Assembly (NCBI RefSeq): GCF_018883605.1
Contig: NZ_JAHLEM010000066.1
Span: 1-48,450, forward strand
Source: Streptomyces niphimycinicus
Lineage (GTDB): Bacteria; Actinomycetota; Actinomycetes; Streptomycetales; Streptomycetaceae
Direction of reading: 5' to 3'
DNA length: 48,450 nucleotides
Shown piece by piece: positions 18,045 to 46,158 of this stretch. Position 1 is the first letter of the stretch. Each line of letters begins with the position of its first letter. The position numbers were made by a program, and so were the translations under genes. The notes below the pieces were generated by a model, which was not told the DNA's origin, ran no database searches, and was given only the letters and a program-made list of their open reading frames with translations.

Positions 18045-18725
18045 GTGGACGACCGCTTTGATGACGCCTTTAACGGATGGCGCACGTCTCTGCGTGAACT
18101 CATGTCTGATGTGTCTGGGCTTGCTGCATGGCAAGAGCGGCGATATCACTTTGCCTACAGGATCGGGGAACTGCTAACGAGTCCGCATGAAGACTGCCCT
18201 GAAATGACTGGCCCTGTGCTCTACGGGGTTTTACTTCCTGGTATGGGGCTGTGTTACGTAGGGCAGACACAGGAGGCAGAACGGCGGCTCAGGGATCTTC
18301 CTGTAGGAGAAAGTCACCACTTGGCGAACACGGTACCGCCCGAGCTCTGGGAGCAGGTGATCGTGGTGCGTTGGCCTGACCTGTTGGAGCAGGCTCCGCC
18401 AGCGGACCAGCAGGTGGCTGCTGAACTGGGGCCGTCAGTGTGTGGTCTCGCCTTGGAGTACCTCCTGCAACTCACGACGCATCCACCCTTGAATGGTCGG
18501 CGACGCGATCGCAATGGACAATGGCGTCCCCGAGACCATACGCGGAGCCGGTCGCGCGGTGCCGTCCATGCGCCCATGCTCCCCGGGCTCTGGGAGTTGA
18601 CATGGCAGACTTGGCAGCATCTCGGGGCTGTTTGTGCTGGAACAGGCGATCCGCCTGCCATCACCACCCGCGTTGGGCGTGTGGTGTTTCCCTCCAGAAT
18701 TCTGGGAGAGACGGCTCGTGAATAG
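18045..18725 (+). CDS. GIY-YIG nuclease-domain protein
   Basis: This 226-residue protein carries the hallmarks of a GIY-YIG endonuclease. The first strand motif is VLYGVL (58-63); the second is CYVGQT (70-75), followed by the catalytic-type Arg in ERRLRDL (80-81). A conserved Glu (about 138, LALEYLLQL) precedes a PPLNGR motif with the expected Asn. The GTG start follows GGAGGGGG by seven bases. The N-terminus (about 1-50) has no recognised fold and the Arg-rich tail may bind DNA. The gene opens the defence island on the same strand as the GHKL-DrmA-DrmB operon and could be a nuclease effector, but the gap of about 320 bases leaves open whether they are co-transcribed. Confidence 0.7.
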   Translation: MDDRFDDAFNGWRTSLRELMSDVSGLAAWQERRYHFAYRIGELLTSPHEDCPEMTGPVLYGVLLPGMGLCYVGQTQEAERRLRDLPVGESHHLANTVPPELWEQVIVVRWPDLLEQAPPADQQVAAELGPSVCGLALEYLLQLTTHPPLNGRRRDRNGQWRPRDHTRSRSRGAVHAPMLPGLWELTWQTWQHLGAVCAGTGDPPAITTRVGRVVFPSRILGETARE

Positions 18726-19044
18726 CCGAACGGGGTAGAGAGATCGGGAGCGAATTTCGTCCCGGGGGAGCTCACGGGTCTTCCTGAAGCGGGTATCCGG
18801 GAGTGCTGGTCGAGTTCGTTGCACCGTGGCTGCTGCCTGCTGAGCTGTCTCAGCGGAGAGGGCCCTCCGTGCAACCTTCGGGGGCGCAAGGTGCTCGGGT
18901 GGCCCTGGGAGTATCGTGTTTCCTTCTTGGGGGAAACGAGTATTTGATCCGTTCCGTCTCCGGGTCTACTGGTGATGGAACGTCTGCCAGATCAGGCTGA
19001 CAGGGGGCTGGGGGCTTGTTCCGAGAGAGCAGCACCACGACGAC
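18726..19044. other. Intergenic region before the GHKL-DrmA-DrmB operon
   Basis: No gene is supported here. It probably holds the operon promoter, but no clear -35/-10 pair was found. Confidence 0.35.
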
Positions 19045-21351
19045 GTGGTCGTGGGAGAAGACGGTGGGATGTTGACAGGGGCAGAGAGGGGAGAGGCCAG
19101 CGCTCTGGAGCCCTTGGAACGCTTCAAGGCTCCCGGAACGACGGCTGACGTGACCACCCGAACGCATGCCGTGGCCTTCAGACCACGCGCTCGTCTGGTC
19201 AGTGTTCTTGGTGAACACCTGATCAGTGACCAGGCGGTCGGTCTCGTGGAGTTGGTGAAGAACGCCTACGACGCCGATGCGACCGACGTGACCGTCGAAC
19301 TGTCGAACCTTGCCGATCCAGGGACTGCACTCGTGGTCGTCGAAGACAACGGTGTGGGGATGACGCTCGACGACCTAGTGGGCAAGTGGCTCAGTCCCGC
19401 GGTCGACCACAAGGAACGGAAGAAGCACAGGGCGGAACGAACCCCGCGGGGGCGGTTGCCGATCGGAGAGAAGGGCGTCGGGCGGTTCGCGGTCCATCAT
19501 CTCGGCCGACGTCTGAGACTCGTCACGCGGGCGGCTGGCAGTGACGAGATCTGCCTTGATGTCGACTGGGACCGATTCGATGCCTCCGACACGTTCCTTG
19601 ATGGGCTCAGTCTGACGGCCGTGGAACGTTCCCCTGAGGTATTCATGGGGGAGTTGACCGGCACGCGACTCGAGATCCGTTCCAGCCGTGGTCCTTGGAA
19701 CGAAAAGCTCGTCCGTAAGGTGCACCGGACACTGAAGCGGCTTCAGAGCCCGGTCAGTGAAGTGGCGGACTTCCGGGTGGGGCTGGTGTGCCCGGACTAC
19801 TCCGAACTCCAGGACATCGACCCGACTGACATCCTGGATCGCGCCCATTACGAGTTCCGGGTACTCGTTGACGCTGACGGGGGGTGCGACTACGAGTACA
19901 CCTGTCGGCACCCTGCGGTGGCTTCGAGATCTCGCTCTGGAACCGAGTCCCTACTCGCGCTGAGTGGTGACGAACTGGCCGGTCGAACCCCTGACTGTGG
20001 TCCGTTCTGGGTGAACCTCTACGTCTGGGACCGGTCGAGCAACTTCATTCAGACAAGTGGTGTTTCCCGTCGTGAGCTCGACGCACACTGCGGAGTGTCG
20101 CTGTTCCGGGACGGCCTGAGAGCGCTGCCCTACGGTGAGCCAGGTGACGACTGGCTGTTCTTGGACCAAGAGCGAATCCAGGCCCCGGCCGAGCGGGTCG
20201 GAAATAACCAGGTGATCGGGTTGGTGCTCGTCGACCAGACGACGAACCTGCAGTTGAGGGACAAAACGAACCGTGAGGGCTTGATCGAGAACCAGGCTTT
20301 CCAGGACCTGCGGACCCTCGTGCGGTCAGTTGTGAGGCTGTTCACTTCACACTGGCGTCGAGACAGGCCGACGGGGGGTACGAAACAACGGCCGGTCACC
20401 GCAGCCGACGGTGTACGGGCAGCCAGGGCGCTCGCCTCGGCTATCGAGAAGACGGCGCGCGATGACGTCCCGGTACGTTGGTCTCCCAGTCCTGCTCGTC
20501 CCTCTGAGGCAGAGGGTGCCGACCAGAAGCACATCCCGGAGCTGGCAGCCGTGTTGACGCAGCGGCAGGCGGTGTCGGAACTGGTTAACGAGCTCGACGG
20601 AGTCAGTACGGACCTTCAGGAGCGGCAGCGGCGTCGAGACATCATGCGGCAGCTTGCCGCCACCGGGCTGGCTGCCGAGAGGGTTGTCCACGAGTTCGGG
20701 CGCCAAGTCGGCGCCGCCATGACGCACCTGCAGCAGTTGGAGAGCGTTGCGCGGGGTGACGACAGGACGCGTGACATGCTCAGAGCTGTTGCGGTCAGCC
20801 TGCGAACACTGCGCAACGAGTTCCGTGTGCTCGCTCCGTACGAGTCCGTCGGACGGGCCGACCGCGTGCGATCGACCAGTGTCGCCGACGCAGTTCGTCT
20901 GGCTCTCCTTCTGAACCAGCACAATCTGGATGCGGCAGGGATCCACGTATTGGTCGAGGGTGACGACTTCGAGGTTCGCAGCCGACCCGCAGCCGTCGTT
21001 CAGATCCTCGACAATCTGCTACACAACGCAAGCTACTGGGCGGTACTGGGTGAAGCGGCTGACCAACGGATCGTGGTGCACCTGAGGCCTACGGAGCGGC
21101 GGGTCCTCGTTGTCGACTCGGGTCCGGGCGTGCATCCGGAGATGGGCGAGCAGCTCTTCCAGCCCTTCAGCACCCTGAAGGTCGGGGGCACTGGGCTCGG
21201 CCTCTTCATATCCGCTGAGCTGGCCCGGAGTCTCGGATGCACGTTGCGCTTGGCGGACAAGACCGAGCAGCAGGGCGAACTCGGCGGCGCCGCATTCGTT
21301 CTCGGGTTCCCCCACGAGGAACGAAGCGATAAGGAGTACCCCGTTGAGTGA
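19045..21351 (+). CDS. Double-GHKL ATPase (MutL/MORC-like N-terminus, histidine-kinase-like C-terminus)
   Basis: This 768-residue protein has two ATP-binding folds of the gyrase-Hsp90-kinase-MutL class. The first (about 50-330) shows the N-box LVELVKNAYDADATDV (E69, N73), DNGVGM (101-106) and GEKGVGRFAVHHLG (about 141-154). The second, at the C-terminus, has LDNLLHNASYW (about 655), VVDSGPGV (about 690) and GGTGLGLFISAELARSLG (about 713), as in sensor kinases. A helical region (about 500-600) between them resembles a dimerisation segment, but no typical phospho-His box was seen. The GTG at 19045 may be replaced by the ATG at 19069. The gene overlaps drmA by eight bases, so it is likely a dedicated partner that senses or loads the helicase. 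Confidence 0.8.
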   Translation: MVVGEDGGMLTGAERGEASALEPLERFKAPGTTADVTTRTHAVAFRPRARLVSVLGEHLISDQAVGLVELVKNAYDADATDVTVELSNLADPGTALVVVEDNGVGMTLDDLVGKWLSPAVDHKERKKHRAERTPRGRLPIGEKGVGRFAVHHLGRRLRLVTRAAGSDEICLDVDWDRFDASDTFLDGLSLTAVERSPEVFMGELTGTRLEIRSSRGPWNEKLVRKVHRTLKRLQSPVSEVADFRVGLVCPDYSELQDIDPTDILDRAHYEFRVLVDADGGCDYEYTCRHPAVASRSRSGTESLLALSGDELAGRTPDCGPFWVNLYVWDRSSNFIQTSGVSRRELDAHCGVSLFRDGLRALPYGEPGDDWLFLDQERIQAPAERVGNNQVIGLVLVDQTTNLQLRDKTNREGLIENQAFQDLRTLVRSVVRLFTSHWRRDRPTGGTKQRPVTAADGVRAARALASAIEKTARDDVPVRWSPSPARPSEAEGADQKHIPELAAVLTQRQAVSELVNELDGVSTDLQERQRRRDIMRQLAATGLAAERVVHEFGRQVGAAMTHLQQLESVARGDDRTRDMLRAVAVSLRTLRNEFRVLAPYESVGRADRVRSTSVADAVRLALLLNQHNLDAAGIHVLVEGDDFEVRSRPAAVVQILDNLLHNASYWAVLGEAADQRIVVHLRPTERRVLVVDSGPGVHPEMGEQLFQPFSTLKVGGTGLGLFISAELARSLGCTLRLADKTEQQGELGGAAFVLGFPHEERSDKEYPVE

Positions 21352-24300
21352 GCGAGACCACCTCGTCGAGGATCTCGTAGCTGAGATCCTCGGTCCCCGG
21401 GGCGGGCCGATCGAGAGGCTGGGGGGCGAAGAAGACCCGCTTGACGAGTACATCGTCGGTGTCCTGGCTCCGTTCTCATCCCCTTCGGTCGAGGTCGACT
21501 CGGACCAGGAGCTCGTCGGCGACGAGCCCTTGGGCGGTGACGACGACCTCGATCCAGGCGAGTCCATGTCTGGACACCAACCTCTTGGTGCGAGCCTTCC
21601 ACCCTTGGCAATCGACCCTCGCGCCAGACCGTCGTCGATGGGTGTGTCTCTGGCGGTCAATGTCTCTGACAGCCCACGCATCGACATCTGCGGTACCTGG
21701 GCCAGGTACGGCAAGGAGGCGAACGGGGAATGGCTGCGGGAGCCACACGGGGCTGTCTGGCGCGACGTGGACTGTTCCGTCGACCACTCGCTGAGCGACC
21801 CCGAGGACCCAGGGGTCGTGGTGAGGGTCCGTAGCCGAAGGGACTCCCGCGGCATCTGGAAGATCTCGGTGTTCGTGGTCAACCAGAGCACTGTGGAATC
21901 AGACCGCCCCTCCCCGTCGGAGCACGTGTTCCAGCCGCAGGTACGTTTGCGCTGTCAGGGTGGAGTCGAGCTGGTTCCGCTGGAACACCAGCACTTGGCG
22001 CAGGACGAGGAGGACGAGAGCCTGGCGCTTCTCTACGAGGACCGACCCGTCCTTGCCAGGGGGCACCTCTGCTCCGCCGTCTGGCGTCAGGTCGATCCAG
22101 AGCGCCCATGTCCGGGAGGGCTGGAGGGAGCCCGGCCCCCGTTCAGGTGGTCCGATGGGCGTCACCTGTTCGACGACAAGACGGTGGCCGAGTTCGAACC
22201 GGCCGAGGTCCGGTCCGAGTTCGTTCCTGTGGTTCCCGTCAACGCCCCGGACAAGGGCTGGCCGACCGGCGCGGGGGATCCACCCGAGCTGGACCCGGTG
22301 GAACTGGCCGAGATCACGGATGGTGCCGTACTCCGCCGAAAGCTGGAGCCGCTCGCGGACGCGTACGAACGCTGGATCGAGGGCCAGGCCAGCGGGGTGG
22401 GAGACCATGCGCCGGGTACGCCGGCCCATCGACACCTCTCCGGGTGCCGACGCGCGCTCGATCGGATCCGTGACGGTATAGAGCTGTTGGCAGGCGACCG
22501 CGACGCCTTCCTCGCGTTCTGCTTCGCCAACCGGGCGATCGCCCTCCAGTCGCAGTGGACCAAGGGGAGGGTCAACCGCTGGTGGCCCTTCCAGCTCGCG
22601 TTCCAGATGGTCAACCTACGGGGGGTCGTCGACGACACCCACGAGGACCGTGAGGTGTGTGACCTGCTGTGGTTCCCGACCGGTGGAGGCAAGACCGAGG
22701 CGTACCTCGGACTCGCTGCCTTTACTCTCGCGTTCCGGCGGCTTCGTGCCCAGCACTGGCAGGAGCCCGGGGGAGGAGCAGGAGTAACCGTCCTTTCCCG
22801 GTACACACTGCGGCTCCTCACGATCCAGCAGTACCGGAGGGCGCTCGCCATGGTGACCGCGTGCGAGTTCCTCAGGGTCAGCGGCTCGCCCGGACAGCGT
22901 GGCTGGCGGCCCTCCGGGTGGGAGGATCTCGGTGACGTGCCGTGGGGCTCCACCAGGTTCTCGGTCGGTCTGTGGGTGGGTGGCAACGTGACCCCGAACA
23001 ACCTGCAGGACTTCGAATACCGCGACGCGAACAACAGGATCATCACGAGGCACGGAGCCATCTCGATTCTGGAGGGGAAGGAAGGAGAGGGCGACCCGGC
23101 CCAGATCCTGAACTGTCCGGCCTGCAGGTCGACGCTTGCCCTCCCCCCGGAGGGTCTGCGCGAAGGTGACACGGGTGTGCTGCACCTCGTGGTGGGCGAC
23201 CCGGAGTTCGCTCTGGGCCCGGACGTGGCACCGCAGCTGTCGGAAGAGCCGTTCGACGTGACCGCGGTCGCGGTCACCCGTCACGCGGACCCGTCGTTCG
23301 TGACCGTGTCCGTTTGGTTCCGCGTCACTGCGGACGTGTCTGACCAGAGCGTCGACAAGTGGTTCGACGGGCACGCGCGTCGCCTGCTCGGTTCCGGATC
23401 CTGGCTCGTCTCCGCACGCGCAAGCCGACCGGGGTACTTCGTGCGGACGGTCGAGTGGGGCAAGCGACGAAGCGAGAAGCCCGTCGAGTTCGAGATCTTC
23501 TGTCCGAACCCGGAGTGTTCACTCAACTCCGACCTGGCCTGGTCCGAGACGACCGAGGTCGGTGCCTGGCCCGTGCTGCCGGCCTTCGACCGGGGTGATG
23601 GTTCCTCGACGCACTGCCCCGTCCCGGCGTGGACGGTGGACGAGCAGGTCTATGCCAGGTGCCCGTCGATGGTGGTGGCGACGGTGGACAAGTTCGCCCG
23701 CCTGGCTTTCGAACCGAGAGCCGGCGCTCTGTTCGGCAACGTCGACAGGCTCAACGAACACCTGGGCTACTACAGGGCCTGGGCGCCTCCGGCAGGGCCG
23801 GCGACCCTCCCACGAAACCCCCGTGAGGAGGTGACAGATGGGAGCAACGTGCAGGTCCGTGGATTCCGCCCACCCGACCTCGTGCTGCAGGACGAACTGC
23901 ATCTCATCGAAGGCCCTCTGGGCAGTATGGTCGGCCTCTACGAGGCTGGCATCGACATCCTCTCCACGGTGCACGACGGAGAGAACATCGTCAGGCCCAA
24001 GTACGTCGCCTCCACCGCGACCGTCCGGAGGGCGGAGGAACAGGTCCGTTCGCTGTTCGACCGGAGTCTGGAGGTCTTCCCTCCCCAGGGACTCCGCGCA
24101 GAGGAGACGTTCTTCTCCTCGACCGGTTCCTCCCATCCACTCGACGCAAAGGGGGCGGGTCGTCTGCACGTCGGAGTGATCGCCCCTGGCCGCGGAGCGC
24201 AGACACCCATCGTTCGAATGTGGTCGCGTCTACTCCAGACACCCCGCGACAGACTCGACGTCGGCGTCGCACAGGAGGAGTTGGATCCGTTCTGGACGCT

Positions 24301-25252
24301 CGTGGGCTACTTCAACGCCATCCGCGAACTCGCTGGAGCTGTTGCGCTGGCCCGTCAGGACATCCCCCAACGTCTGGGGAGCGTTGCCGCGTCGCCTCGT
24401 ACTCTGGACGAGCAGGAGCCGATGGAGCTCTCCAGCCGCACCAGTTCCCTACGACTCCCGGGCATGCTCGAGGAGCTGGGGGTCCGATTGGCGCCTGACC
24501 GGGAACCTGCGAACGCGGTCGTCGCCACCTCGATGTTCGGCACAGGTGTCGACGTGGACAGACTCGGACTCATGGTCGTACACGGGCAGCCGAAGACCAC
24601 CTCCTCCTACATCCAGGCCACCGGTCGCGTGGGCCGGGGTGTTGGCGGTCTCGTCGTCACCTTCTACCGGGCCTCGCGCCCGCGGGACCTCAGCCACTAC
24701 GAGTACTTCACCGGCTACCACACCACGCTCTACCGCCACGTCGAGCCCGTTACTGTCAACCCCTTCGCGCCCCGGGCCAGGGACAGGGCACTCGGCCCGG
24801 TGATGGTGAGTGTCCTCCGTCAGGCAGCGAGCGTTCCGACCACGACGGGTTCTGTGACAGTCGACGAGCGGTGGCGGATCCAACAGCGGCTCAGCAACGG
24901 GGGCTGGTCCTGCCGTGCCCACGAGATGAGGGATGCCCACCTGGACCCCGAAGTGGACGTTCTCCCCGGAATCCTCGAGGAACGTGCCGCCCAGCAGCCT
25001 GCCCTCCGCCGACCACCGACCTCGGACACGGAGGACCACGCCCGCTCGGAGTTGGAACGGTGGCGGCAGGTTGCTGATCGTGTAGGTGGTGCCTTGCTGT
25101 ACCACGAGCCGACAGTCACACGTCCGGCCTCTCGGCCGGTCGTCCTCGGTGACCTTGCGCACCATGTCGCAGGGACCGGTGAGGCTTACGAGAACGCGCC
25201 GAACTCGCTGCGTGAGGTGGAGGCCACCACCACTGTCAAGGGAAGGGGATGA
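21344..25252 (+). CDS. drmA: DrmA-like superfamily 2 helicase (DISARM-type), copy 1
   Basis: This 1302-residue protein matches DISARM DrmA in size and motifs. It has Walker A FPTGGGKTEAY near residue 450, a DExH-type box LQDELHLIEG near 850, and the C-terminal helicase motifs TSMFGTGVDVDRLGLMVVHG and QATGRVGRG near 1065-1095. Two Cys pairs between the lobes (NCPAC and FCPNPEC) suggest a zinc site. The TTG start has AAGGAG seven bases upstream and overlaps the GHKL ATPase gene by eight bases; a three-base gap separates it from drmB. In DISARM, DrmA and DrmB form a complex that loads on foreign DNA, and that complex is the expected core here. Its sequence is far from the second DrmA at 42.7-46.2 kb, so this is not a recent duplication. 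Confidence 0.88.
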   Translation: MSERDHLVEDLVAEILGPRGGPIERLGGEEDPLDEYIVGVLAPFSSPSVEVDSDQELVGDEPLGGDDDLDPGESMSGHQPLGASLPPLAIDPRARPSSMGVSLAVNVSDSPRIDICGTWARYGKEANGEWLREPHGAVWRDVDCSVDHSLSDPEDPGVVVRVRSRRDSRGIWKISVFVVNQSTVESDRPSPSEHVFQPQVRLRCQGGVELVPLEHQHLAQDEEDESLALLYEDRPVLARGHLCSAVWRQVDPERPCPGGLEGARPPFRWSDGRHLFDDKTVAEFEPAEVRSEFVPVVPVNAPDKGWPTGAGDPPELDPVELAEITDGAVLRRKLEPLADAYERWIEGQASGVGDHAPGTPAHRHLSGCRRALDRIRDGIELLAGDRDAFLAFCFANRAIALQSQWTKGRVNRWWPFQLAFQMVNLRGVVDDTHEDREVCDLLWFPTGGGKTEAYLGLAAFTLAFRRLRAQHWQEPGGGAGVTVLSRYTLRLLTIQQYRRALAMVTACEFLRVSGSPGQRGWRPSGWEDLGDVPWGSTRFSVGLWVGGNVTPNNLQDFEYRDANNRIITRHGAISILEGKEGEGDPAQILNCPACRSTLALPPEGLREGDTGVLHLVVGDPEFALGPDVAPQLSEEPFDVTAVAVTRHADPSFVTVSVWFRVTADVSDQSVDKWFDGHARRLLGSGSWLVSARASRPGYFVRTVEWGKRRSEKPVEFEIFCPNPECSLNSDLAWSETTEVGAWPVLPAFDRGDGSSTHCPVPAWTVDEQVYARCPSMVVATVDKFARLAFEPRAGALFGNVDRLNEHLGYYRAWAPPAGPATLPRNPREEVTDGSNVQVRGFRPPDLVLQDELHLIEGPLGSMVGLYEAGIDILSTVHDGENIVRPKYVASTATVRRAEEQVRSLFDRSLEVFPPQGLRAEETFFSSTGSSHPLDAKGAGRLHVGVIAPGRGAQTPIVRMWSRLLQTPRDRLDVGVAQEELDPFWTLVGYFNAIRELAGAVALARQDIPQRLGSVAASPRTLDEQEPMELSSRTSSLRLPGMLEELGVRLAPDREPANAVVATSMFGTGVDVDRLGLMVVHGQPKTTSSYIQATGRVGRGVGGLVVTFYRASRPRDLSHYEYFTGYHTTLYRHVEPVTVNPFAPRARDRALGPVMVSVLRQAASVPTTTGSVTVDERWRIQQRLSNGGWSCRAHEMRDAHLDPEVDVLPGILEERAAQQPALRRPPTSDTEDHARSELERWRQVADRVGGALLYHEPTVTRPASRPVVLGDLAHHVAGTGEAYENAPNSLREVEATTTVKGRG

Positions 25253-25255
25253 ACC

Positions 25256-26998
25256 GTGAGCCGTCCCTACCAGGAGATCCGCCCGTCCCAGTTCGTCATC
25301 ACCCTTGGCCCTGGAAGTATTCTCGAGACCGGGTCCGGGCCGGTCATATTGAAGACGGTTGACACACTCTTCAACGAGATCGGCCGTCAGCCCCAGGACT
25401 TCGAGATCGTCGACGAACGGCTCTCACGCCTCGAGCTGGACGGTGCGCGTATCGCTCGTGTGCCCACCAACGCCGAACTCGGACTCCCCTCTGACAGAAC
25501 GATCTACCCCGCCCACGCGTTTCCCTTCTGGTCCCTGTGCACGCAGCACCGACCGCACCAAGTGCTGTACGCGGCCGACAGCGGCTGCCCGGAGTGCCCG
25601 TCGGTGTCGTCGCAGCAGCGCCGGGAGAAGGCGGGGCGCGAGGCGATCCGTTTCGTGCAGACATGCGAGAACGGTCACTTGGACGAGGTCCATTGGCACG
25701 GACTCGTACATGAAGGTGGGGGATGTGGCACGAAACACTACCTGTGGCACGGGGGTGGCCGCGCCCTCCGGCTCGTCCGCATTGAGTGTCCCCGTTGCCA
25801 CGCGACCGCCAACTTCGGCCAGGCGTACGCCAAGTCCTGGTGGTGTAGTGGCCGCATCGTGGAGCACGGGGGGCGCCCGGCGTCGGCGACGGCGCGGTGT
25901 GTGCAGAAGGCCCGCATCGTCCAGCGAGGGGCTGCCAACCTACGGCTGAGTCTGCTCCAGAGCGCGCTGACGATCGTGGATATGCCGACCAGGCTTCATG
26001 ACATCCTCAGCGACCGATCCCTGATGGGGGCAGTCGGGGCACTTCATCCCCTTGGCCTCCTCGACCAGGTGGCACTCATGGCTGGGGCTGAACGGGCAGG
26101 GCTTCCCCCGGACGCGATCGAGTACCTGAAACAGACACCGTGGTCCGAGATCAGCAAGGCGGTTGACCAACTATTGGGAGCTGACAACACGGTCTCGGCG
26201 TCACTACGTGACGACGAACTCGACCGACTGCGCCAAGCAGCGACCTGTGGTGTTCCGGCGGTTCCCCACCCGCACCTCGGTTCTCCTCCGCTGTTCGAGG
26301 TTCGCCAGGACGATGTGCGCCTCGTACAGGGGCCCGACCGCCGTCACAGGCTGCGGGTCGCACCCGTCAGCCGTCTCCGCATGGTCATGGTTCAGACAGG
26401 TTACCAGCGGCTGGACCCGCAGAAGGCCCAGAAGGTGTCGACTGCCTTCGACTGGAACGGCACCACCTGGTATCCCGGCATCGAGCTCTTCGGCGAGGGC
26501 GTCTTCATTGATCTTGCGGGCGACTCGCTCACCCTGGGAGGCAGCAGGGCCCACCAGTGGAACGAACGGTTCAGGAGTGATCCAGACGGTGATCCATCAC
26601 TCCACCCCGTTCACGTCTGGTGGCACACCCTCTCCCACCGCCTCCTCAGGGCGTTTTCAGTGGACTCCGGATACTCGTCCGCAGCGATCCGTGAGCGGGT
26701 CTATCTCAGCGTGCAGGACGGCAGGGTCGCAGGCAGTGGACTTCTCCTCTACACGGTCCAACCCGGAGGAGACGGCACTCTTGGAGGGCTGGTCGCTCTC
26801 GTCAACCGCTTCGAGAACGTTCTTTCGCACGCGCTGCGAGACGTCGACAGTTGCTCCAACGACCCGCTGTGTCAGGAAGCGCCGTCCGTGGGGGCCGACG
26901 GAGTTGCCTGCTACTCGTGTCTCCTGGCGTCGGAGACCTCGTGTGAGCACCGCAACCAGGGGTTGGACCGCCTTCTCCTCGCTGAGAACCTACCGTGA
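25256..26998 (+). CDS. drmB: DrmB-like DUF1998 protein, copy 1
   Basis: This 580-residue protein ends in a DUF1998 domain: VWWHTLSHRLLRAFSVDSGYS near residue 455 (split by short gaps in the family consensus), then LLLYTVQPGGDGTLGGLVAL and a final Cys cluster (CSNDPLC, CYSCL, CEH) that likely binds zinc. More Cys/His pairs occur in the N-terminal half (HRPH, CPEC, CENGH, CPRC). DrmB partners the DrmA helicase in DISARM. The GTG start lies four bases after the drmA stop, behind GGAAGGGG inside the end of drmA. A strong hairpin follows the stop. Confidence 0.88.
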   Translation: MSRPYQEIRPSQFVITLGPGSILETGSGPVILKTVDTLFNEIGRQPQDFEIVDERLSRLELDGARIARVPTNAELGLPSDRTIYPAHAFPFWSLCTQHRPHQVLYAADSGCPECPSVSSQQRREKAGREAIRFVQTCENGHLDEVHWHGLVHEGGGCGTKHYLWHGGGRALRLVRIECPRCHATANFGQAYAKSWWCSGRIVEHGGRPASATARCVQKARIVQRGAANLRLSLLQSALTIVDMPTRLHDILSDRSLMGAVGALHPLGLLDQVALMAGAERAGLPPDAIEYLKQTPWSEISKAVDQLLGADNTVSASLRDDELDRLRQAATCGVPAVPHPHLGSPPLFEVRQDDVRLVQGPDRRHRLRVAPVSRLRMVMVQTGYQRLDPQKAQKVSTAFDWNGTTWYPGIELFGEGVFIDLAGDSLTLGGSRAHQWNERFRSDPDGDPSLHPVHVWWHTLSHRLLRAFSVDSGYSSAAIRERVYLSVQDGRVAGSGLLLYTVQPGGDGTLGGLVALVNRFENVLSHALRDVDSCSNDPLCQEAPSVGADGVACYSCLLASETSCEHRNQGLDRLLLAENLP

Positions 26999-27029
26999 CC
27001 TGCTGATCAGCTGGGGTTGGCGTCACCCG

Positions 27030-27072
27030 ACCGCTTCTGCGTGGGCTGAGGGAGAGCCGACGCAGAAGCGGT
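27030..27072. terminator. Bidirectional terminator between drmB1 and convergent helicase
   Basis: ACCGCTTCTGCGT (27030-27042) and ACGCAGAAGCGGT (27060-27072) are perfect 13-bp arms with a 17-base loop. They lie between two convergent genes and can stop transcription from both. Confidence 0.85.
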
Positions 27073-27083
27073 GCGCCGCCGGG

Positions 27084-28937
27084 CTAGGTGCCGCTCTGGG
27101 TGCTTGACCAGTAGCTGGAGTACCGCTTGTAGGCGAGTTGTCCGCTGAACCGGATGTTGTCCTCAATGTCCACAACCAGGCAACTCTCTGTTCCACCGAA
27201 CCGCTGTCCGCGCATGCCCCTACCGATCATCTGCTCGTACAGGACCGGACTGGTGGTGGGGCGACCGACCACCAAGGCTCGTACCGCCGGAGCGTCGAAA
27301 CCGGTCGTGAGGACACCGTAGTTACATAGGGCGGATAGGTGTTCGTCGCGGAACTGTTCGATTAGTGCGCGCCGTGTCGCGCTGCGTGTGTCGGAGGTGA
27401 CGACCTCCGCGGCTCGGCCGGCGCGTCGCAGTAGGACAGCCATTGCTATCGCGTGTTCCACGGTGCAGCCGAAGAACAGCGTCGGCCAGTCCGACGGTAG
27501 TTCGAGCAGTTGCTTCAGCAAAGCACGGTTCCTCGCGTCCGATTCACCGATCTGGCGGAGGAAGTCAGGGTGGAAGTCATCGAACTGAGCGAAGTGCGTT
27601 CGGTAGCTTTCGACGTCCTCCATCTGGAACTCAGGACCGGCATAGGAGAGCACCTTGTGCTCAGGCCGTGACAGGACATCTCGCCGACGGAGCTCGGACA
27701 CGATGTCCTCACCCAAGGAGCGGGAACTGAGAAGCCTGCTGTGGAACCTGGCCGCCAGCTGGCGAGTCTCGGTGTCGACCCTTCGAAAGGGTGTGGCTGT
27801 CAGTCCGATGAGGGGTACCGCGGCCTTCTGCCCGAGTTCGATCCCAAGGAAGCGCAGGACTCTGCTGTAGCTGGGGGCCAGCATTCGGTGCGCTTCGTCC
27901 ACAACCACCGCGCCGAGGTTCTCGCGCAGCAGCTCGAGTTCTTGTTGCATGTCGTCGTTGGTGCCTCGAAGAACTGCGTAGAGCTTCTGGATGCTGGCCA
28001 CGACGATGTCGGGATCGCTCGGGACAGAGGCTTTCCCCCACAGTCGGGCGACCTTCATGGTTTGCCGTACCTGGTCATTGCGATGTCCGAGGTCTGTCCA
28101 TACCTCACGGAACGCCTGGACCGCCTGCTCGCACAGTTCCTCACTCTGGGCGATCCAGAGAACGGCCTGACGGCCCTGCTGGGCGATGCGCCACTCGATG
28201 AGGCTCTCGACCGCGGTCCTGGTCTTGCCAGCTCCTGTGGGCAGGGTCAGAACACCGCGGTTGGCGCCCGGTGCCCCGGAAAGCACCTCCATCACCTGCT
28301 CCTTGAGGTCCAGTTGGAAGTCCTCCAAGTCTCGGAGAGGTACAAAAGGAGCAACTTCCAGAGTGTCCGGCTCCCGTGGGCTTCCTGGCAGGCCGGCAAA
28401 GGTAGGCGGTATGTCGAGGACTCGCACGAAGTGGCGAGGCCAGCTCTTGCCCGGCTTCCACGTGCGCTCCGCGATCTTCTTGGCCTTCGCTCTGCTCCCC
28501 CCACGGCTGCGTTCGCCACCTCGGTAGTCGTGCAGGCTCTCCAGCTCGTCCTCCGATGCGGAAAGCGCAAGCCGTTCCCGTAGCGTCCTGGACTCGAGAA
28601 GGCCGAAGCCCGACCTGTCGACCAGGAACTCGGCAAGCTCGCCCTCGGGAAGTTTTGACCGCAGCCTTCCGGATTCGTTCTCAACTGCCGCGATGATCCA
28701 CTCCACCGACTTCTTGGAACGAGATCTCCCACCGCTCTCAAGGTCCTCGATCACCGCCCGCAGATCCCGTGAGGAGAGACGCCGACACAGTACTTGAATT
28801 GCCTGGGAGCGGTCCTGCTCGCTCAACTGGCCGAAGGCTTCCACCGAACACTGTCTCCTGGACCAACTAAGAGCCGCCTGTCTTGAGTGTTCACAGACGG
28901 TCAAACGGTGCAGTGGGGGGTTATGCCAGTTTCTCAC
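27084..28937 (-). CDS. Superfamily 2 DEAH-box helicase (SSL2/restriction-subunit-like)
   Basis: This 617-residue protein carries a complete helicase core: Walker A TLPTGAGKTRT (232-239), DEAH box VVVDEAHRM (about 350), the TAT motif GLTATPFRR, and C-terminal motifs VLTTGFDAP and QMIGRGMRG (about 580). It resembles the helicase subunits of type III restriction and related defence systems. Residues 1 to about 190 have no recognised domain. The GTG at 28937 is uncertain, and the N-terminus seems short for such proteins, so it may be truncated. It faces the DrmA-DrmB operon and ends at a shared terminator. It is not a SNF2-type DrmD by its motifs. Confidence 0.8.
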   Translation of the reverse strand: MRNWHNPPLHRLTVCEHSRQAALSWSRRQCSVEAFGQLSEQDRSQAIQVLCRRLSSRDLRAVIEDLESGGRSRSKKSVEWIIAAVENESGRLRSKLPEGELAEFLVDRSGFGLLESRTLRERLALSASEDELESLHDYRGGERSRGGSRAKAKKIAERTWKPGKSWPRHFVRVLDIPPTFAGLPGSPREPDTLEVAPFVPLRDLEDFQLDLKEQVMEVLSGAPGANRGVLTLPTGAGKTRTAVESLIEWRIAQQGRQAVLWIAQSEELCEQAVQAFREVWTDLGHRNDQVRQTMKVARLWGKASVPSDPDIVVASIQKLYAVLRGTNDDMQQELELLRENLGAVVVDEAHRMLAPSYSRVLRFLGIELGQKAAVPLIGLTATPFRRVDTETRQLAARFHSRLLSSRSLGEDIVSELRRRDVLSRPEHKVLSYAGPEFQMEDVESYRTHFAQFDDFHPDFLRQIGESDARNRALLKQLLELPSDWPTLFFGCTVEHAIAMAVLLRRAGRAAEVVTSDTRSATRRALIEQFRDEHLSALCNYGVLTTGFDAPAVRALVVGRPTTSPVLYEQMIGRGMRGQRFGGTESCLVVDIEDNIRFSGQLAYKRYSSYWSSTQSGT

Positions 28938-29790: not shown

Positions 29791-30178
29791 GCGCCGTGCC
29801 TCGACCAGAGCGCGGGCTGAGGGGCGAGACCCTTGGGTGGGACTGGAGGAATCGCACGTCCCACGGTGTCGCCCCTGCCTGCCCCTGAGCGCTCATCCCG
29901 CCTCGCGGCCGTGGCGCCTGGGGCGGAATAACCCGTCAGTAGTAGTTACGCAGTCCCCCCTCTCCGTGCCACACGCGTCCCTTATGCTTGAGCCCGAGGA
30001 GTGCACTAGGCCGTTCACGCGAAGTCAGGGGGGCTCCGTACACCTCCGCAGCTCGTACGAGCACCGACAGATGCATGGCAGGCAGAACACCGAGGTCAAC
30101 GGCCTCTGAATCTTGCTTTGACCAGCCATTGTGTGATGTCCTGGTGCTCGTTTGTGTCGTTGTGACGGAGGTCGGACT
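29791..30178. other. Region upstream of the methyltransferase gene, with a possible coding remnant
   Basis: Minus-strand bases about 30105-29936 read LSVLVRAAEVYGAPL and LLGLKHKGRVWHGEGGLR before a stop, which looks like the protein-like C-terminus of a lost gene. This is uncertain. ACGGAGG at 30165-30171 is the ribosome site of the methyltransferase. Confidence 0.3.
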
Positions 30179-38476: not shown

Positions 38477-38544
38477 GAACGGCCTCCGCAGGGTCTCTAC
38501 TTGATGGGAAGTAAGGTGAGGGGCACCTACCGACAATCCAGGGA

Positions 38545-40110
38545 TCAGGTGTTCCAGAAGCCCTGCATCTGGTCGAAGGGGGGCATGACTCGAATCCTGT
38601 CCCGGGCCGCGCTTGGGGAGCGTCCTTGGGTGACGAGCGACTTGAACACCTGCTCGGCCACCTCCACCGCTTCCGGCGGGGCCATGGATTCGCCCCCGAA
38701 CGGAACGGGGTCGTCCTCGGAGTCCGTCTCATGGAGCGCGCGCAGCGCTGTGACTGGCACCGTCTCCTCCAGCAGGCGGATCAGCGCCCGTGCTTCGGGC
38801 GCCGAGTCACGCCCGTGCTGCAGCAGCTCGCGCACGAGTGGGTGGCTCCGGTTGATCCTGCAGTTGACCTGTCCGTTCTCTCGTTTGACGGTCCAGGCGT
38901 AGAGGAGCGGATCCCCATGGGTTCGTGCCGAAACCCTGCCCCGGTGTCGGAGCACCTCTGCGGCACGGGTACGGGTCTTCGCGGCGATCCGGCGCAGGTG
39001 CCGTCGCAGCGCAACGGGAGGCACAACGCTGGCCTTGCGGACATCGACGCCCCAGTCCGCATCCGTCTCGGCCGGGATGTCGATCGCGATCCGCGCCAGG
39101 TTGTACCTCTCCTCCCGGCGCATGCCCGCGAGTCCCAACCATTGCCCTGCGAGGATCAGCCGGTTGCGGCGGTAAACGTAGAACCCCTGCTGTCCCAGCC
39201 ACCCGGCGGGGCCGGCAGCACGGGCGTGATCGTCCTCGGACAGGCGCTGCGCGCTGGGAAGTACGAAAGCCTCCACCCTGACCTGGTCCTCGGCCAGCGG
39301 CAGGTTCTCAACCGGCAGACGCTGCACGGACGGATGCGTGGCCATGAACGGGTCCCAAGGTTCGACCGATGTTCCGGAGACGCGGATGGTCCGCCTGCCC
39401 GATCCGGTGAGGAATCGTGCGAACACCATGCCCAGGTGGGACTCGGTGCGCTCGGCCTCATCGTAGAACTGCTGCTGCACCTTCTCGTCGTCCTCGCCCA
39501 CACCCTCGGAGTGGAATCCCTTGAGACGTCGCCAGAGCACGATGGTGCCCTTGTCCGCACCGTCACGAAGACCCTCGATGAGGGCGGCGGTGTCCGGACC
39601 CGTACCACGGCGCAGCAGCCACTTGCCCGAGGTCTCGACGACGTCCAGGTCCCAGGTCCGGACGCTCCACTCACCGCCGTCGGAGCTGGCCACGGTGAGC
39701 TGTCTGGCCTGTGAGAACGAGGCGGACTTGAGCCCCACACCGAACCTGCCGAGGTCGGTACCCGTACGCAGGGTGCCCGGGCCTCGTGCCGCCACCGTCA
39801 TCGCGGTCACGAGCTGGTCGCTCGTCATGCCGTCACCGTCGTCGACCACGGCGATCCAGGAGTCCCCTCCGGCCCAGGTGAACTCAATGTCGATGCGTCG
39901 TGCCCTGGCCGAGATGCTGTTGTCCACGAGGTCCGCGACGGCTGCCTCCAGCGAGTAGCCGAGCGAACTCAGAGAAGCGACCATGCCAGCCGGATCCGGC
40001 GCGGCGACTTCGTAGTCCTCGTACTTCACACTCATGTTCGGCGTCATGTCCCCGTTGGCCAGCGGTTGCGATGGGCGGCCGTCCGGGATTCCCATGACAG
40101 TGACGGGCAT
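38545..40110 (-). CDS. MORC/MutL-like GHKL ATPase of the Z1 system
   Basis: This protein of about 521 residues has an N-terminal GHKL ATPase: N-box EAAVADLVDNSISARARR (E55, N64), VVDDGDGM (89-95) and GRFGVGLKSASFSQA (121-135). The middle and C-terminal parts (S5-like fold, then a helical tail) have no clear family. It is the first gene of the four-gene MORC, Z1, PD-(D/E)XK, AIPR operon, with 68 bases before the Z1 start. Such ATPases clamp on DNA on ATP binding. The start is uncertain: ATGs at 40095, 40044 and 40035 are also possible. Confidence 0.85.
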   Translation of the reverse strand: MPVTVMGIPDGRPSQPLANGDMTPNMSVKYEDYEVAAPDPAGMVASLSSLGYSLEAAVADLVDNSISARARRIDIEFTWAGGDSWIAVVDDGDGMTSDQLVTAMTVAARGPGTLRTGTDLGRFGVGLKSASFSQARQLTVASSDGGEWSVRTWDLDVVETSGKWLLRRGTGPDTAALIEGLRDGADKGTIVLWRRLKGFHSEGVGEDDEKVQQQFYDEAERTESHLGMVFARFLTGSGRRTIRVSGTSVEPWDPFMATHPSVQRLPVENLPLAEDQVRVEAFVLPSAQRLSEDDHARAAGPAGWLGQQGFYVYRRNRLILAGQWLGLAGMRREERYNLARIAIDIPAETDADWGVDVRKASVVPPVALRRHLRRIAAKTRTRAAEVLRHRGRVSARTHGDPLLYAWTVKRENGQVNCRINRSHPLVRELLQHGRDSAPEARALIRLLEETVPVTALRALHETDSEDDPVPFGGESMAPPEAVEVAEQVFKSLVTQGRSPSAARDRIRVMPPFDQMQGFWNT

Positions 40111-40765
40111 GGTCCCCGTAGCGGGGCCCTTCCCTCTTCATGCCACATCACCATGAGCGCGGATGCTCCACCCCGGACCGATGATAGTTGCAGGACGCTC
40201 AGAAGCGTCCATACATGGAGCATCGATGCTGCAGCCACTAATCGGTCATCCACCTCGTCAACCACCCCTAGCGGAAACGAGAGTGTCAATGCCCACAGAC
40301 ACGCCGAGGGCGTCCAAGCGCACTTGGCGACGTCCCACAGGAAGAATCTCTTGATGACCTCGAAGTGCGCGTCCTTGACCGGTAGGTCGGGCCTCACCAG
40401 TACCTTCACCAAGGTGCTGAGGTTGGGTGTCGTTCCCAGGGCCTGTACGTAGCGAAGGGACGTGGCGTGCATCTTTCCTGCACCGGGAGGGGGCGCAGGC
40501 AGAGCTGTTGAGGGGCACCGACGTACCAGGTCCAGTCGATCGACTCGAACGGTGGGTCGCTCCGCGGTTCGGCTGTCGCCGTGCCTGGTAGCCGTACGGA
40601 GCGGGTCGTAGATCCGTTCCGGCCCGGAGCGCCAAGCCGGGGGCCGCGCGGACACGGGCACGCGAGTCGGAGACGGTGTCCAGAAGATCCAGCTCGGGCC
40701 TCAGGGGGACTCCTAATCGTGCGTGACCGACGGTTGGCCGGGGTTCCACCCACGAAGGGGAGGAG
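40111..40765. other. Gap between the two right-hand operons, with possible coding remnants
   Basis: About 650 bases without an intact gene. On the minus strand one frame reads KDAHFEVIKRFFLWDV and another FESIDWTWYVGAPQQ, which look protein-like but are broken and unrecognised. The promoter of the MORC-Z1 operon should lie here, since a strong terminator separates it from the upstream DrmB. Confidence 0.35.
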
Positions 40766-40804: not shown

Positions 40805-42706
40805 TCACAAGGTCGGATCCCAGTACCCGACCCTGGAGCCGTCCGGAGAGCCGAACAGGTGCCAGCGGGAGAGGTTCCGGTTCCAGGACTGGCAGGCGGT
40901 CTCGGGAAGCTGGAGACAGCCGTGGTCCGCGCCCTCGTTCGTGATCATGCAGTTCGGGTCGTACAGGCACGCGTCGTTGTCGACGGCACGGCTGACGACT
41001 GCGTCCAGATTCTGTTCGAGTACCGTCCGCATGGCGCCGAGGCTGAAGTCGCTGCCACCGTTGGGATAGATGGCGAAGGCTAGGTCGTACGGAAAAAGGT
41101 ACTCGGACAGGCTCGTCTCGCTGTAGCCGCTGTCAACGGCCAAGGCTCGCAGGAGTTGGTGCGACAGGGAGTGGAGCAGACCGAACAGTTCGTGGACCGG
41201 GAGGTCCGGGTGTCCCGGTGCCGGGCGGGTTTCGTGCGAGAGAGCCTTGCCGTCGCTTGGCCCGAGCTGGTGCACCAGCCACCGGGCGACGCCACCGGCC
41301 TCCTCAAGAGTGCTGCGGCTGACGAGTTCGTTGCGGACGAGCCACCGGCTCACCCGTTCCCGGTCCACTGGGAAAAGCAGTGCCTCGGCCTCGGTGGGGT
41401 GGGCGTAGAGAAGGGTCTTTTCGGGGGCTCCTCGTACAGCACGTCCCCGGTAGGGGACCAGGTCCGCCTCCTCGGGGCTGAAGCCAGTCCGGCTGTAGCC
41501 GATCGCCAGGTAGGTGATCGGGAGATCACTGATCAGACAGGTCTCCTGGCCGAGACCTGCAGACGCGAGGACGCCGGGGTAGCGCTCGTACAGGGCACGG
41601 CGCTCGGCGTTGTGAGCTTCCCTCTGGAGACGGGGGACACCCAGGCGTTCCAGGTTCAGAACCCGACGGTAGGTGTGCAGCTCGGCTGCGAGTCCGCGCG
41701 CATCGTCGCTCTCTGTGTCGAGTCCGAGAGCCTTGCCCACCCGGTCCCGCAGGTGGTCCACCTCAACCGGCATGAAACGTGCCTGGAGCGCACGTGCCTG
41801 GTCGTGCAGGCCAGCCTCCTCCATCACACGGATGCTCTCGACGACCTCGCTGGGGACGTCGACCGTGTGCCCGTCCGTGAGCCGCCGGAACTCGTCCTCG
41901 GTGATCTCCCCAAGCCACCAGCCGAGCACGGCGGGCGTGTACAAGGGGTTGCTTTGTCGGGTGGCCTCTTCGGTCGTGGTCACGTTGACGAGTGTCAGGC
42001 CCTGGCCGACATGCGCCGTCCCCGCTGTGTGGAGCAGGGGGCTCATGAATCTGTCCGGATAACTGCACGAGGAGTTGCTGCAGCTCCACTGCACACCCAG
42101 AGGGAAGCCACAGGTCATGCACTCCCACCGAAAGTCACGGAACCGACTGGGGCGGTCATCGAGCCTGAACCCGGTGTGTCCCCTGGGACACTTGCTTGGT
42201 GGGTACATGGGTGACATCTCGCCACACTTGTGCGCGAAGATGAACTGGAGCTGCCGGTTCCCCACGGGGTTACCGCAGGCGGGGCAGGCCGGCGGCCAGT
42301 CGTCCGTTCCGGGTCGTGGATCACTGGCCGTCCAGACGTGTCCGCAGTGGCCGCTGGAGCAGCGCACAACCCGGGGCCAGATGCGGCAGAAGACCTTGCC
42401 AGGGACCACGACCTCGTAGTGGCGATCGGCGAGTCGGTCCTCGTCTCCGGGGAACTCCGGCGCCCGGTCGGATCCGGTGGAGAATGCTCGGCCGGCGGCC
42501 CGCCACCTGCGCACGAACCGCATGGCTTCCTGAACCAGGTGCTCGCGGTCGAGGGAGGGGCCGTCGAACTCCTCGTCACGCCCGAACTGCACCACTTGGG
42601 CCGTGTAGCCGCCGCGATGGTCGAAGGTCTGGCCGGGGCGGTACCGGTAGAGAACCTGGCCCCGGTCGCGGGCCATGTCGTCGTTCCTGGGATTGAACGC
42701 CATCAT
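40805..42706 (-). CDS. drmB: DrmB-like DUF1998 protein, copy 2
   Basis: This 633-residue protein has a C-terminal DUF1998 domain: LLHSLSHQLLRALAVDSGYS near residue 525, DLAFAIYPNGGSDFSLGAM, and a Cys-containing end (CLYDPNC, CLQLPETAC). The N-terminal part has several zinc-binding-type pairs: CSSGHCGH, CPACGNPV, CPRGH, CMTCG and CSNSSC. Its start overlaps the stop of the paired DrmA helicase (ATGA), mirroring the first pair but with different spacing. Only the fold and the terminal motifs resemble copy 1. It is the last gene of its operon and is followed by a strong terminator. Confidence 0.85.
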   Translation of the reverse strand: MMAFNPRNDDMARDRGQVLYRYRPGQTFDHRGGYTAQVVQFGRDEEFDGPSLDREHLVQEAMRFVRRWRAAGRAFSTGSDRAPEFPGDEDRLADRHYEVVVPGKVFCRIWPRVVRCSSGHCGHVWTASDPRPGTDDWPPACPACGNPVGNRQLQFIFAHKCGEMSPMYPPSKCPRGHTGFRLDDRPSRFRDFRWECMTCGFPLGVQWSCSNSSCSYPDRFMSPLLHTAGTAHVGQGLTLVNVTTTEEATRQSNPLYTPAVLGWWLGEITEDEFRRLTDGHTVDVPSEVVESIRVMEEAGLHDQARALQARFMPVEVDHLRDRVGKALGLDTESDDARGLAAELHTYRRVLNLERLGVPRLQREAHNAERRALYERYPGVLASAGLGQETCLISDLPITYLAIGYSRTGFSPEEADLVPYRGRAVRGAPEKTLLYAHPTEAEALLFPVDRERVSRWLVRNELVSRSTLEEAGGVARWLVHQLGPSDGKALSHETRPAPGHPDLPVHELFGLLHSLSHQLLRALAVDSGYSETSLSEYLFPYDLAFAIYPNGGSDFSLGAMRTVLEQNLDAVVSRAVDNDACLYDPNCMITNEGADHGCLQLPETACQSWNRNLSRWHLFGSPDGSRVGYWDPTL

Positions 42707-45700
42707 GACCTCCGGCTGTCGGACACGATGTGGAATGGGATGCCCTCGGACACGTCACGGAGACTGGTCATGGGCCTGTACTCAAGGCCCAGGTAGTCGC
42801 CCGTTGCGCGGTATCCTCGGTTGTTGCCGCCGGCGAGACCGGCGGAGGCGCCAGCGGAGCGAAGGCTGGCCAAGGCGTGTTCCACCATGTCCTCAAGGTC
42901 GCTGCGGAGTTCCTGCGCCTCGGGGCGCTGCGACTGGAAGACCGCGTGAAGCGCCTCCAGCAGCTCGGTGAGCTGGGCCCCCTCGAGCCCTCCGCCGGAC
43001 GGATCACGGAGGGCGGCCTGCATTTTCGAGAGGTCGTGCAGGTGGCTCGGTGCGTTACCCGCGCGCCACCAGTCGCGGTTGGCGATCTGGAGGAGATGCC
43101 CCATCAGTATCCCCGGGAGGGTCTTGCGGACCGCAAACCGGCTCCACCGGTTGATGGCCACCGGTTCGACCATACGGTCCAGGTACTCGTGGAACTTGCC
43201 GTGGTACCGGTAGTGCGACCGGTCCCGTTCCCTCACCGGGTTGAAGAGCATGAACACGAGCCCGTGGTAGGCGCGGCCGACTCGCGACGAGGCCTGGATG
43301 TACTCCGCCATGGACCTGGGCATCCCGTTGAACAGCATGAGGTTCAGCCGGTCCACGTCGACCCCGTGGCTAACCATGCTGGTCGCGACGACCATGCCCG
43401 TGCTGCCGTTGGTACTGCCTAGGTCGTCCAGGACGCCACGGACCTCGTCCAAGCGCGTCTCACCCTTCAGCTCGGCCACACGGAGATCTGGGAAGCCCTC
43501 CCTGCGCAGCGCCTCGTTGACCTGGGTGTCCAGCGAGCGGCGGATACGACCGAAGTCGACAAGGGTGGTGGCGTACGTGAGGCTTGTCCGGTACAGGTCC
43601 ACCACCGCGCGAAGCTCCTCCTCCGGCCATTCTGCGAGGCTGAGGGGAAGATCGCGGCGCTGGTCGAGCTTCCACAGAGCCCGGTGCGCGGATGTCAGGA
43701 TCCTGACCAGTGTCATCTCCGCCGTCCCTCGTGTCGGCATGACCCCGACGAAGCGGCGGAGGGGGAGGCTGCGGTCGAGACGCCAGTAGAAGCTCTCGTC
43801 GAGGTTGGGCCCGGGAAGCGGCACCACCACCGACCTCAGGCCGAAGAGGTGCTCGCTCTGTCGGTCCTCGCCGCGGATGGTCGCGGTGGTCGCGACCACC
43901 TTCATGCGGACGCCCCGTCCGTCGGGGCGGTGCTTGGACGTCAGAGTGCGCTGTACCTCCGCCAAGAGCCCCTCGTAGTGCCCTGAGAACGCTCCGAGCT
44001 CCTCGTTGACCATGTGTAGCTCGTCGATGATCTCCAGCGAGGGAGACGGGTCGTAGAGGGGTTTGTCCAGGGCCTTGGGAGGCGACTTCGGGTGGCCCGG
44101 CGCATGACGCTCGTGGCACTTCCCACCCCGACCGAACCCGTGGGGAGGGCACCAGCAGTCGACGTCGCCGAACAGCGCGCCGAACCGGTCCGACAGCCCG
44201 ATGTTGGCGAGCTTGTCCAGGGTGCCGACCACGACCGTGGGCAGGTAGCGGTAGATCTCGGTGTCGACCACGACAATCGGGAGGACCTTCCCGCACTGCT
44301 CGTTGCCGCAGACATGCTCCAGCCTGAGCCGCTGGGGATCAGGGGGCGGGATGTGCACGGACCGTTCACTACAGTAGGGACAGTCGTGCACGAGTCGATA
44401 CGCGTGCCGCTCCTCCTCGCTCGACCGAAGTCGGTCAAGCATGCGGTCGGACGTGAGTGAGTTGGGAGTGTTGCCGCCGCCGGCGTAGAAGCCGATGAAG
44501 AAGGGCCACCCTGGGTCGCCGCCGACCTCCCTGAGCCGGTCGGCGTTCCGGTCCCGGACGGTGTCCGCGGCAGCGACGACGTCAAGTTGCCGCTGCGTCT
44601 GCTGGAGTGTCAGCAACCTGAGGGGGAACCGGCACCAAGCCGAGACCCCGACCTTCTTCCCCCTGGCCCGGTCGTAGAACATGCACACCAGCACCAGACC
44701 GAGATACGCCTCGGTCTTGCCCCCTCCGGTCGGGTACCAGACGACGGTTGCCGCCTCGGTCGGATCCACGTCTCCGTCGTCACCCCAGAGCCCTGGGGTG
44801 AAGAGATGCTGTGGGTGCTCCCGCCAGGCCAGGGCGCCCAGCTGGCTGACGATGGCCACGAGCTGGAAGAGGCGCCACCCCCGGCTCGGCCGCTTCCGAC
44901 GATGGTTGAGTTCCGTCATGGACTCGTTCGCGAGCTGGAAGGCCGTCAACAGACGCTTGTCCTGTTGCAGCCACGCGATACCGTCGCGGAATCGCGCAAC
45001 CTCCAGTTTGGCGGCCCGTCGGTCGGCTTCCTTCCGATAGGCCAGCTCAGGCCTGTCCTGGAGATCTGCCGTGTCCCAGACGGGAGCGTCCAGATATGCC
45101 TCCATCTCGTCGGCGAGATCGTCGAGAACCGGAATCGGGTCGGCGGCGAGCGTCGCGTAGCCCCAGCGTTCGTCGGTCCGGGCCACTGCGCGGTGGGTGT
45201 CATGCTCCGGAACGGGCACACTGCGCACAGTCACGAGTTGGCCTTGGTGCCACCGTGACTCCACACCGCAGTTGTTCGCGTACGCTCCGAGCTCCCCGGA
45301 GTAGCGGTAGGCGTCGGCACCGAGGTCCATCGTGATGGGCAGCAGCAGGTCGCCCTCGACCTCCAGCCCTGCGCGGAACAGAGCGTTGTCCCTGGCCTCG
45401 TCGCGGCGTTTACGGCCGGCGTTGCTGCCCCGGCCCTGGACGGTCACGACGGGATCGGTGGCGAGGTTCTGCAGCGTCGCGGTCACACGGAGCCGTCCGG
45501 ACGCGACGGGCCTCGACGTGACGACGACGTGCGCGGCGGGGGACGGCACCACCGGGTCACCGCCCACCTCCCGGGTCAGCCACTGCTCGAAGGCCCCGTC
45601 GTCCGCCATGGCGGCGGGAGGCACCAGTCGCTCTCTGCGGTCGCTCCCGACGCGGCGGTCGATCCGGGGGTCCCGGAGGGCATGCTTGACGGCCTCGTCG

Positions 45701-46158
45701 AAGGCGTGGCGGAACTCACGTTCCAGGGTCTGGCGCAGGCCAGCCTCGTGCCCCAGGACGATCTCGACCGGCCCGACCGTAACGCCGAGCCGTTTGAACA
45801 ACGGCGCCAGCCGGTACGGCTCCTCGCGCTCACCGGCCCACTCCAGCTGTTGGGCGCGGGTCGGCAGGACTGCGTAGTAGAACGACGCCCGTGCCTTGAC
45901 GGTGATGGAGCTGGCGTTTTCGGCCTCGAACTCGAACCCGAGGCTGTCCGGAGTCGTGCGGCCGTATCTCGGGGCGGCACCGCCCGGTTCGACGGTGTGC
46001 GGGCCAAGACTCTCCATGAAGTAGCGAGCGCTCGGAGGCTCGCCGAGGCAGATGTCGCCTTGGGCTTCCCCGGTTGCATCAGTGACCACCGCGTGTACGA
46101 GATGATCGACGAGGGCGGTCTGCTGGGCGACGCTCGGCTCAAAACGGGGCGTGGTCAT
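42703..46158 (-). CDS. drmA: DrmA-like superfamily 2 helicase, copy 2
   Basis: This protein of about 1151 residues has Walker A YPTGGGKTEAYLGLV near residue 475, a DExH-type box EIIDELHMVNEELG near 713, and C-terminal motifs ATSMVSHGVDVDRLNLMLFN and QASSRVGRAYHG near 930-960. A Cys set (CPYCSE, then CGNEQCGK) between the lobes suggests a zinc site. The ATG at 46158 is chosen over one 25 codons earlier because GGGGAGG precedes it. It forms a two-gene unit with drmB copy 2 and has no GHKL partner directly attached. It may work with the MORC-Z1 operon downstream or as a separate DrmAB module. Confidence 0.86.
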   Translation of the reverse strand: MTTPRFEPSVAQQTALVDHLVHAVVTDATGEAQGDICLGEPPSARYFMESLGPHTVEPGGAAPRYGRTTPDSLGFEFEAENASSITVKARASFYYAVLPTRAQQLEWAGEREEPYRLAPLFKRLGVTVGPVEIVLGHEAGLRQTLEREFRHAFDEAVKHALRDPRIDRRVGSDRRERLVPPAAMADDGAFEQWLTREVGGDPVVPSPAAHVVVTSRPVASGRLRVTATLQNLATDPVVTVQGRGSNAGRKRRDEARDNALFRAGLEVEGDLLLPITMDLGADAYRYSGELGAYANNCGVESRWHQGQLVTVRSVPVPEHDTHRAVARTDERWGYATLAADPIPVLDDLADEMEAYLDAPVWDTADLQDRPELAYRKEADRRAAKLEVARFRDGIAWLQQDKRLLTAFQLANESMTELNHRRKRPSRGWRLFQLVAIVSQLGALAWREHPQHLFTPGLWGDDGDVDPTEAATVVWYPTGGGKTEAYLGLVLVCMFYDRARGKKVGVSAWCRFPLRLLTLQQTQRQLDVVAAADTVRDRNADRLREVGGDPGWPFFIGFYAGGGNTPNSLTSDRMLDRLRSSEEERHAYRLVHDCPYCSERSVHIPPPDPQRLRLEHVCGNEQCGKVLPIVVVDTEIYRYLPTVVVGTLDKLANIGLSDRFGALFGDVDCWCPPHGFGRGGKCHERHAPGHPKSPPKALDKPLYDPSPSLEIIDELHMVNEELGAFSGHYEGLLAEVQRTLTSKHRPDGRGVRMKVVATTATIRGEDRQSEHLFGLRSVVVPLPGPNLDESFYWRLDRSLPLRRFVGVMPTRGTAEMTLVRILTSAHRALWKLDQRRDLPLSLAEWPEEELRAVVDLYRTSLTYATTLVDFGRIRRSLDTQVNEALRREGFPDLRVAELKGETRLDEVRGVLDDLGSTNGSTGMVVATSMVSHGVDVDRLNLMLFNGMPRSMAEYIQASSRVGRAYHGLVFMLFNPVRERDRSHYRYHGKFHEYLDRMVEPVAINRWSRFAVRKTLPGILMGHLLQIANRDWWRAGNAPSHLHDLSKMQAALRDPSGGGLEGAQLTELLEALHAVFQSQRPEAQELRSDLEDMVEHALASLRSAGASAGLAGGNNRGYRATGDYLGLEYRPMTSLRDVSEGIPFHIVSDSRRS

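Follow-up and report, generated by a model that had tools for sequence, protein, structure and literature searches.

How can one defence island hold two unlike DrmA-DrmB pairs and a single methyltransferase: as one system, as separate systems lying side by side, or as exchangeable parts of a common platform? The question is raised by positions 18045..46158 of a 48,450-nt stretch of Streptomyces niphimycinicus (assembly GCF_018883605.1, contig NZ_JAHLEM010000066.1, positions 1-48,450, forward strand), referred to here as the window. The original prediction, which saw two unlike DrmA-DrmB pairs, a GHKL ATPase, a MORC-Z1-AIPR operon and one C5-methyltransferase in this region, was confirmed by Pfam and PADLOC matches. 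We scanned the window proteins with Pfam, PADLOC and NCBIfam models (PADLOC for 16 proteins), and in 25 relatives we mapped the neighbourhood of the chassis, as we call the five genes that run from the methyltransferase through AIPR to MORC. The two DrmAB pairs and their neighbours are called cassettes 1 and 2.

DrmAB cassettes upstream of MORC

The position directly upstream of MORC, hereafter the slot, holds different cassettes in different genomes. DrmA2-DrmB2 occupies it in 11 loci (the window, L005, G405, G082, G544, G320, G460, G467, G052, G173 and G234; length and position indicate that G405 and L004 are a single contig), DrmA1-DrmB1 with a helicase occupies it in G006 and G123, and a third DrmAB pair, unlike the other two, occupies it in L006. 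Since G006 and G123 are 94% identical across 19 kb, they represent one placement of cassette 1 and not two. In the window, DrmAB2 fills the slot and DrmAB1 stands beyond the methyltransferase. DrmA2 orthologues adjoin the chassis in 10/10 genomes and DrmA1 orthologues in 3/3, and in the genomes searched the orthologues of both pairs were found adjoining chassis only. We consider it likely that the two pairs work as plug-ins of the chassis, on whose single DNA-methylation mark they would depend.

The window taken by itself, with every component present and a single methyltransferase, could also be read as one set made up of both pairs and the chassis. The proposal of a merged system, or of nested ones sharing one DNA mark, is partly supported by our comparison; however, the recurrence of both pairs with the Z1 operon that was to back a single system was not seen, the window being the only mapped locus with both, and in a first draw of 21 chassis genomes DrmAB was present in 7 and not seen in 14, as judged on the stretches fetched. 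The one-set reading, already disfavoured, is thus highly improbable.

What we tentatively put forward as a further-reaching account, with a real though less than even chance, is that DrmAB is not always the core of a self-standing DISARM system, and can be a swappable plug-in that lacks a methyltransferase of its own, docks at a fixed slot of a Mza-like chassis, reads its methylation mark and feeds its nucleases, so that the platform would gain phage ranges by swapping sensor cassettes. Alternatively, the pairs might be separate DISARM-like systems that piled up beside a Mza-like one, whether within a defence island or aboard conjugative elements, and are functionally unlinked from it; we regard such hitchhiking to a hotspot as rather unlikely.

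Exchange between chassis types

DrmAB2 is held by three chassis types, between which the chassis proteins are 59-72% identical (31-47% at four-fold sites) and DrmA2 and DrmB2 are 88-95% identical (52-69%). The cassette 2 nuclease is 66-74% identical between types, so it may either have been inherited along with the chassis or have changed more quickly; a clear mismatch is confined to DrmA2-DrmB2. In L005, DrmA2 is nearer to that of G234 than to that of the window, yet the chassis is close to the window's. The DrmAB2 tree rejects the window's chassis type as a clade (approximately unbiased, AU, test p 2.7e-5), and the chassis tree groups the same type with full support. At the DNA level, cassette 2 is a single alignable block of ~7.2-7.3 kb that starts ~150-235 bp ahead of DrmA2 and stops close to the nuclease gene's end, with 81-87% nucleotide identity between chassis types versus 69-74% for the chassis start. 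The 7.9-kb cassette 1 block (21232-29167) aligns in one piece (7985-7988 columns, 88% nucleotide identity) with G006 and G123, where it stands directly upstream of MORC. It thus appears that the two DrmAB pairs have been transferred from one version of the chassis to another.

The alignable blocks stop sharply on both sides and one upstream slot is used over and over, as would be expected if mobile cassettes recombined upstream of MORC through local sequence, the linkage then reflecting integration and not joint function. We judge this improbable: the named genes of the two cassettes include no recognised recombinase gene, inspection by eye of the block ends displayed showed no common repeat (no dedicated search was made), and the window's cassette 1 sits at the opposite chassis end.

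The chassis

The C5-cytosine methyltransferase (30152..32092, + strand; Pfam DNA_methylase 2.7e-60, residues 53-419) is convergent with the AIPR gene in 24 of the 25 relatives. The AIPR protein, which is MzaE-like (32657..34681, −; Pfam AIPR 7.8e-96; PADLOC MzaE 3e-95; NCBIfam MzaE 417 bits, cut-off 1050), keeps its gene position in all 25, the gene being split in L008. There follow a MzaD-like DUF4420 putative PD-(D/E)XK nuclease (34674..35687, −; Pfam DUF4420 3.2e-87; PADLOC MzaD 1.7e-19), the gene between DUF4420 and MORC (35684..38536, −), and the MzaB-like MORC-type GHKL ATPase (38545..40110, −; PADLOC MzaB 8.2e-109; HATPase_c_3 6.9e-29); PADLOC also gives MzaC at 6e-197. All five domain families are supported by Pfam and PADLOC matches and by the conserved neighbourhood in relatives, and the chassis is predicted to be a five-gene anti-virus restriction system.

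It is Mza-like with differences. For MzaB, MzaC and MzaE, scores amount to at most about half of the NCBIfam equivalog cut-off, which none of the three reaches; no MzaA (sigma-factor-like) is among the PADLOC matches listed for the 16 window proteins (for the methyltransferase, the best 25 of 62 families); and a C5 methyltransferase is attached. A described five-gene system with the same five domain families, one of them printed in its paper as DUF4220, corresponds to the chassis, and Section 11 of that paper, which deals with the system, mentions neither DrmAB nor an endonuclease-III-like methyltransferase extension.

The cassettes and their relation to DISARM

Cassette 1 comprises the DrmA1 helicase (21344..25252, +; NCBIfam DISARM_DrmAL, NF038326, 1378 bits, cut-off 999), DrmB1 with an MZB zinc-binding domain (25256..26998, +; PADLOC DrmB 8.7e-165; Pfam MZB 5.2e-9) and, in the same DNA block, a RadD/ResIII-like superfamily 2 (SF2) helicase (27084..28937, −; Pfam ResIII 9.7e-21; NCBIfam RadD 6.8e-34, below cut-off). 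Cassette 2 comprises the DrmA2 helicase (42703..46233, −; PADLOC DrmA 6.4e-124; PDB DrmA 7s9v 3e-56; NCBIfam 377 bits, below the cut-off of 950), DrmB2 (40805..42706, −; PADLOC DrmB 7.4e-34; NCBIfam DrmB_fam 56.6 bits, cut-off 240), in which Pfam finds no MZB domain, and a PD-(D/E)XK nuclease gene. In the window this last gene, of ~514 codons when whole, is a remnant (40293..40703, −) with its middle gone and its frame lost: its ends match the intact L005 gene at 88% and 83% nucleotide identity, and ~1.1 kb of 1545 nt is absent. The family alignment has D355, D357, E372 and K374 invariant, and PD-(D/E)XK was also read from the fold of an intact relative. Eight of the 11 loci have this nuclease gene, which lies between DrmB2 and MORC, at near full length; G320 has a fragment, the window has the remnant just described, and no such gene was found in G082. 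Upstream of DrmA2 stands an imperfect 19-bp inverted repeat (46354..46372, −; 16/19; 0.07 chance matches expected), which with the following bases forms a pattern present, with variants, in 10 of the 11 loci and in a further variant in G052; it is possibly an operator or regulatory element.

We class the cassettes as resembling DISARM, not as members of it. The likeness lies in the DrmA component (DrmA1 above its NCBIfam cut-off, DrmA2 by PADLOC and PDB), in the DrmB component (DrmB1, with DrmB2 weak) and in the nearby C5 methyltransferase. Of the DISARM components named at the outset (DrmA, DrmB, DrmMII), the last has a match in the methyltransferase (DrmMII models, 1.2e-81); that enzyme tracks the chassis, and Pfam scans and block alignment recognised no methyltransferase gene inside either cassette block. 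The predicted absence of recognisable DrmC or DrmE was borne out, with no match to DrmE and no DrmC (PLD) among the PADLOC matches listed for the 16 window proteins. The third gene differs as well, being the PD-(D/E)XK nuclease in the cassette 2 of relatives and the RadD-like helicase in cassette 1. ARMADA, BRIGADE and TALON are comparable as diverse defence operons with YprA-family helicases (PMC12458937); MORC, GHKL and Mza did not come up when the main text of that paper was searched for these terms. The window differs from these systems: no PglX family is among the PADLOC matches listed for window proteins, and BrxHI/BrxHII gave weak cross-matches only, of DrmA1 (2.4e-5) and DrmA2 (0.0014). 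Elsewhere, on the Streptomyces cellulosae plasmid CP109198.1 (L128), a DrmA-like helicase, a hypothetical protein and a PLD-domain protein stand in series with a DNA methyltransferase, adjoining AAA, transposase and TnsA-like genes.

The methyltransferase tail

The C-terminal 222 residues of the methyltransferase (~31424-32089, +) end in C-x6-C-x2-C-x5-C, four cysteines whose spacing we take to resemble the Fe-S cluster of endonuclease III. Every row with a long C-terminal match has the motif (29/29, from 28 distinct loci; no such match came from G012 or L008), and 59/61 homologues have it in slightly looser form. Endonuclease III was matched in PDB by sequence search (E 0.023, spanning almost the whole domain) and by profile search (0.0037, the cysteine part), a Pfam scan gave no match at E 10, and the predicted model is helical. 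The domain is likely endonuclease-III-like; no counterpart of the catalytic lysine or aspartate of endonuclease III was assigned. A Vsr gene lies close to the cytosine methyltransferase in 4/5 annotated plasmid chassis loci of other phyla (not L150). We infer that the tail would repair T:G mismatches arising from 5-methylcytosine deamination, and perhaps it is a built-in repair function that replaces Vsr.

The tandem GHKL ATPase and neighbouring genes

Overlapping DrmA1 is a tandem GHKL (paraMORC/histidine-kinase-like) ATPase gene (19045..21351, +; HATPase_c_3 at residues 66-188, 8.8e-18, and HATPase_c at residues 649-757; HEF_HK 20.2 bits, under the cut-off of 24.1). Relatives occur in 15/293 genomes, 9 of the 15 at the chassis (p 3e-8), and plasmids of Agrobacterium and Hymenobacter also carry them beside the chassis. 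Of the 25 mapped relatives, 9 have the protein and a receiver-like protein near the chassis, 8 beyond the methyltransferase and 1 (G059) upstream of MORC. Because the final 36-39 codons of the gene survive upstream of DrmA1 in G006 and G123, it likely once belonged to cassette 1. According to the relevant passages of PMC8011034, a two-component-like HEF_HK/Response_reg_2 pair with a paraMORC ATPase places a tandem GHKL protein beside C5-methyltransferase restriction systems, as here, with the differences that the window's gene precedes DrmA1 and that no receiver-like partner was recognised in the window; DISARM did not come up in a term search of that article's main text.

The adjoining 226-aa protein (18045..18725, +) is loosely associated and has no Pfam match; L008 carries a homologue (50%) upstream of its chassis. 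From a motif judged by eye, it is presumably GIY-YIG-nuclease-like. Just beyond the island, an 826-aa protein (14788-17265) unites Mu-transposase C-terminal and AAA domains; we take it to be a TniA-TniB-like fusion, possibly marking a Tn7-like element. Of a gene for a DUF5655/NucS_C-like protein the window retains only remnants (~29026-29696). Such proteins, together with N6_N4 methyltransferase and NlpC/P60 proteins, are recurrent neighbours of the island (L004, L005, L046, L052), and give the impression of a conjugative element.
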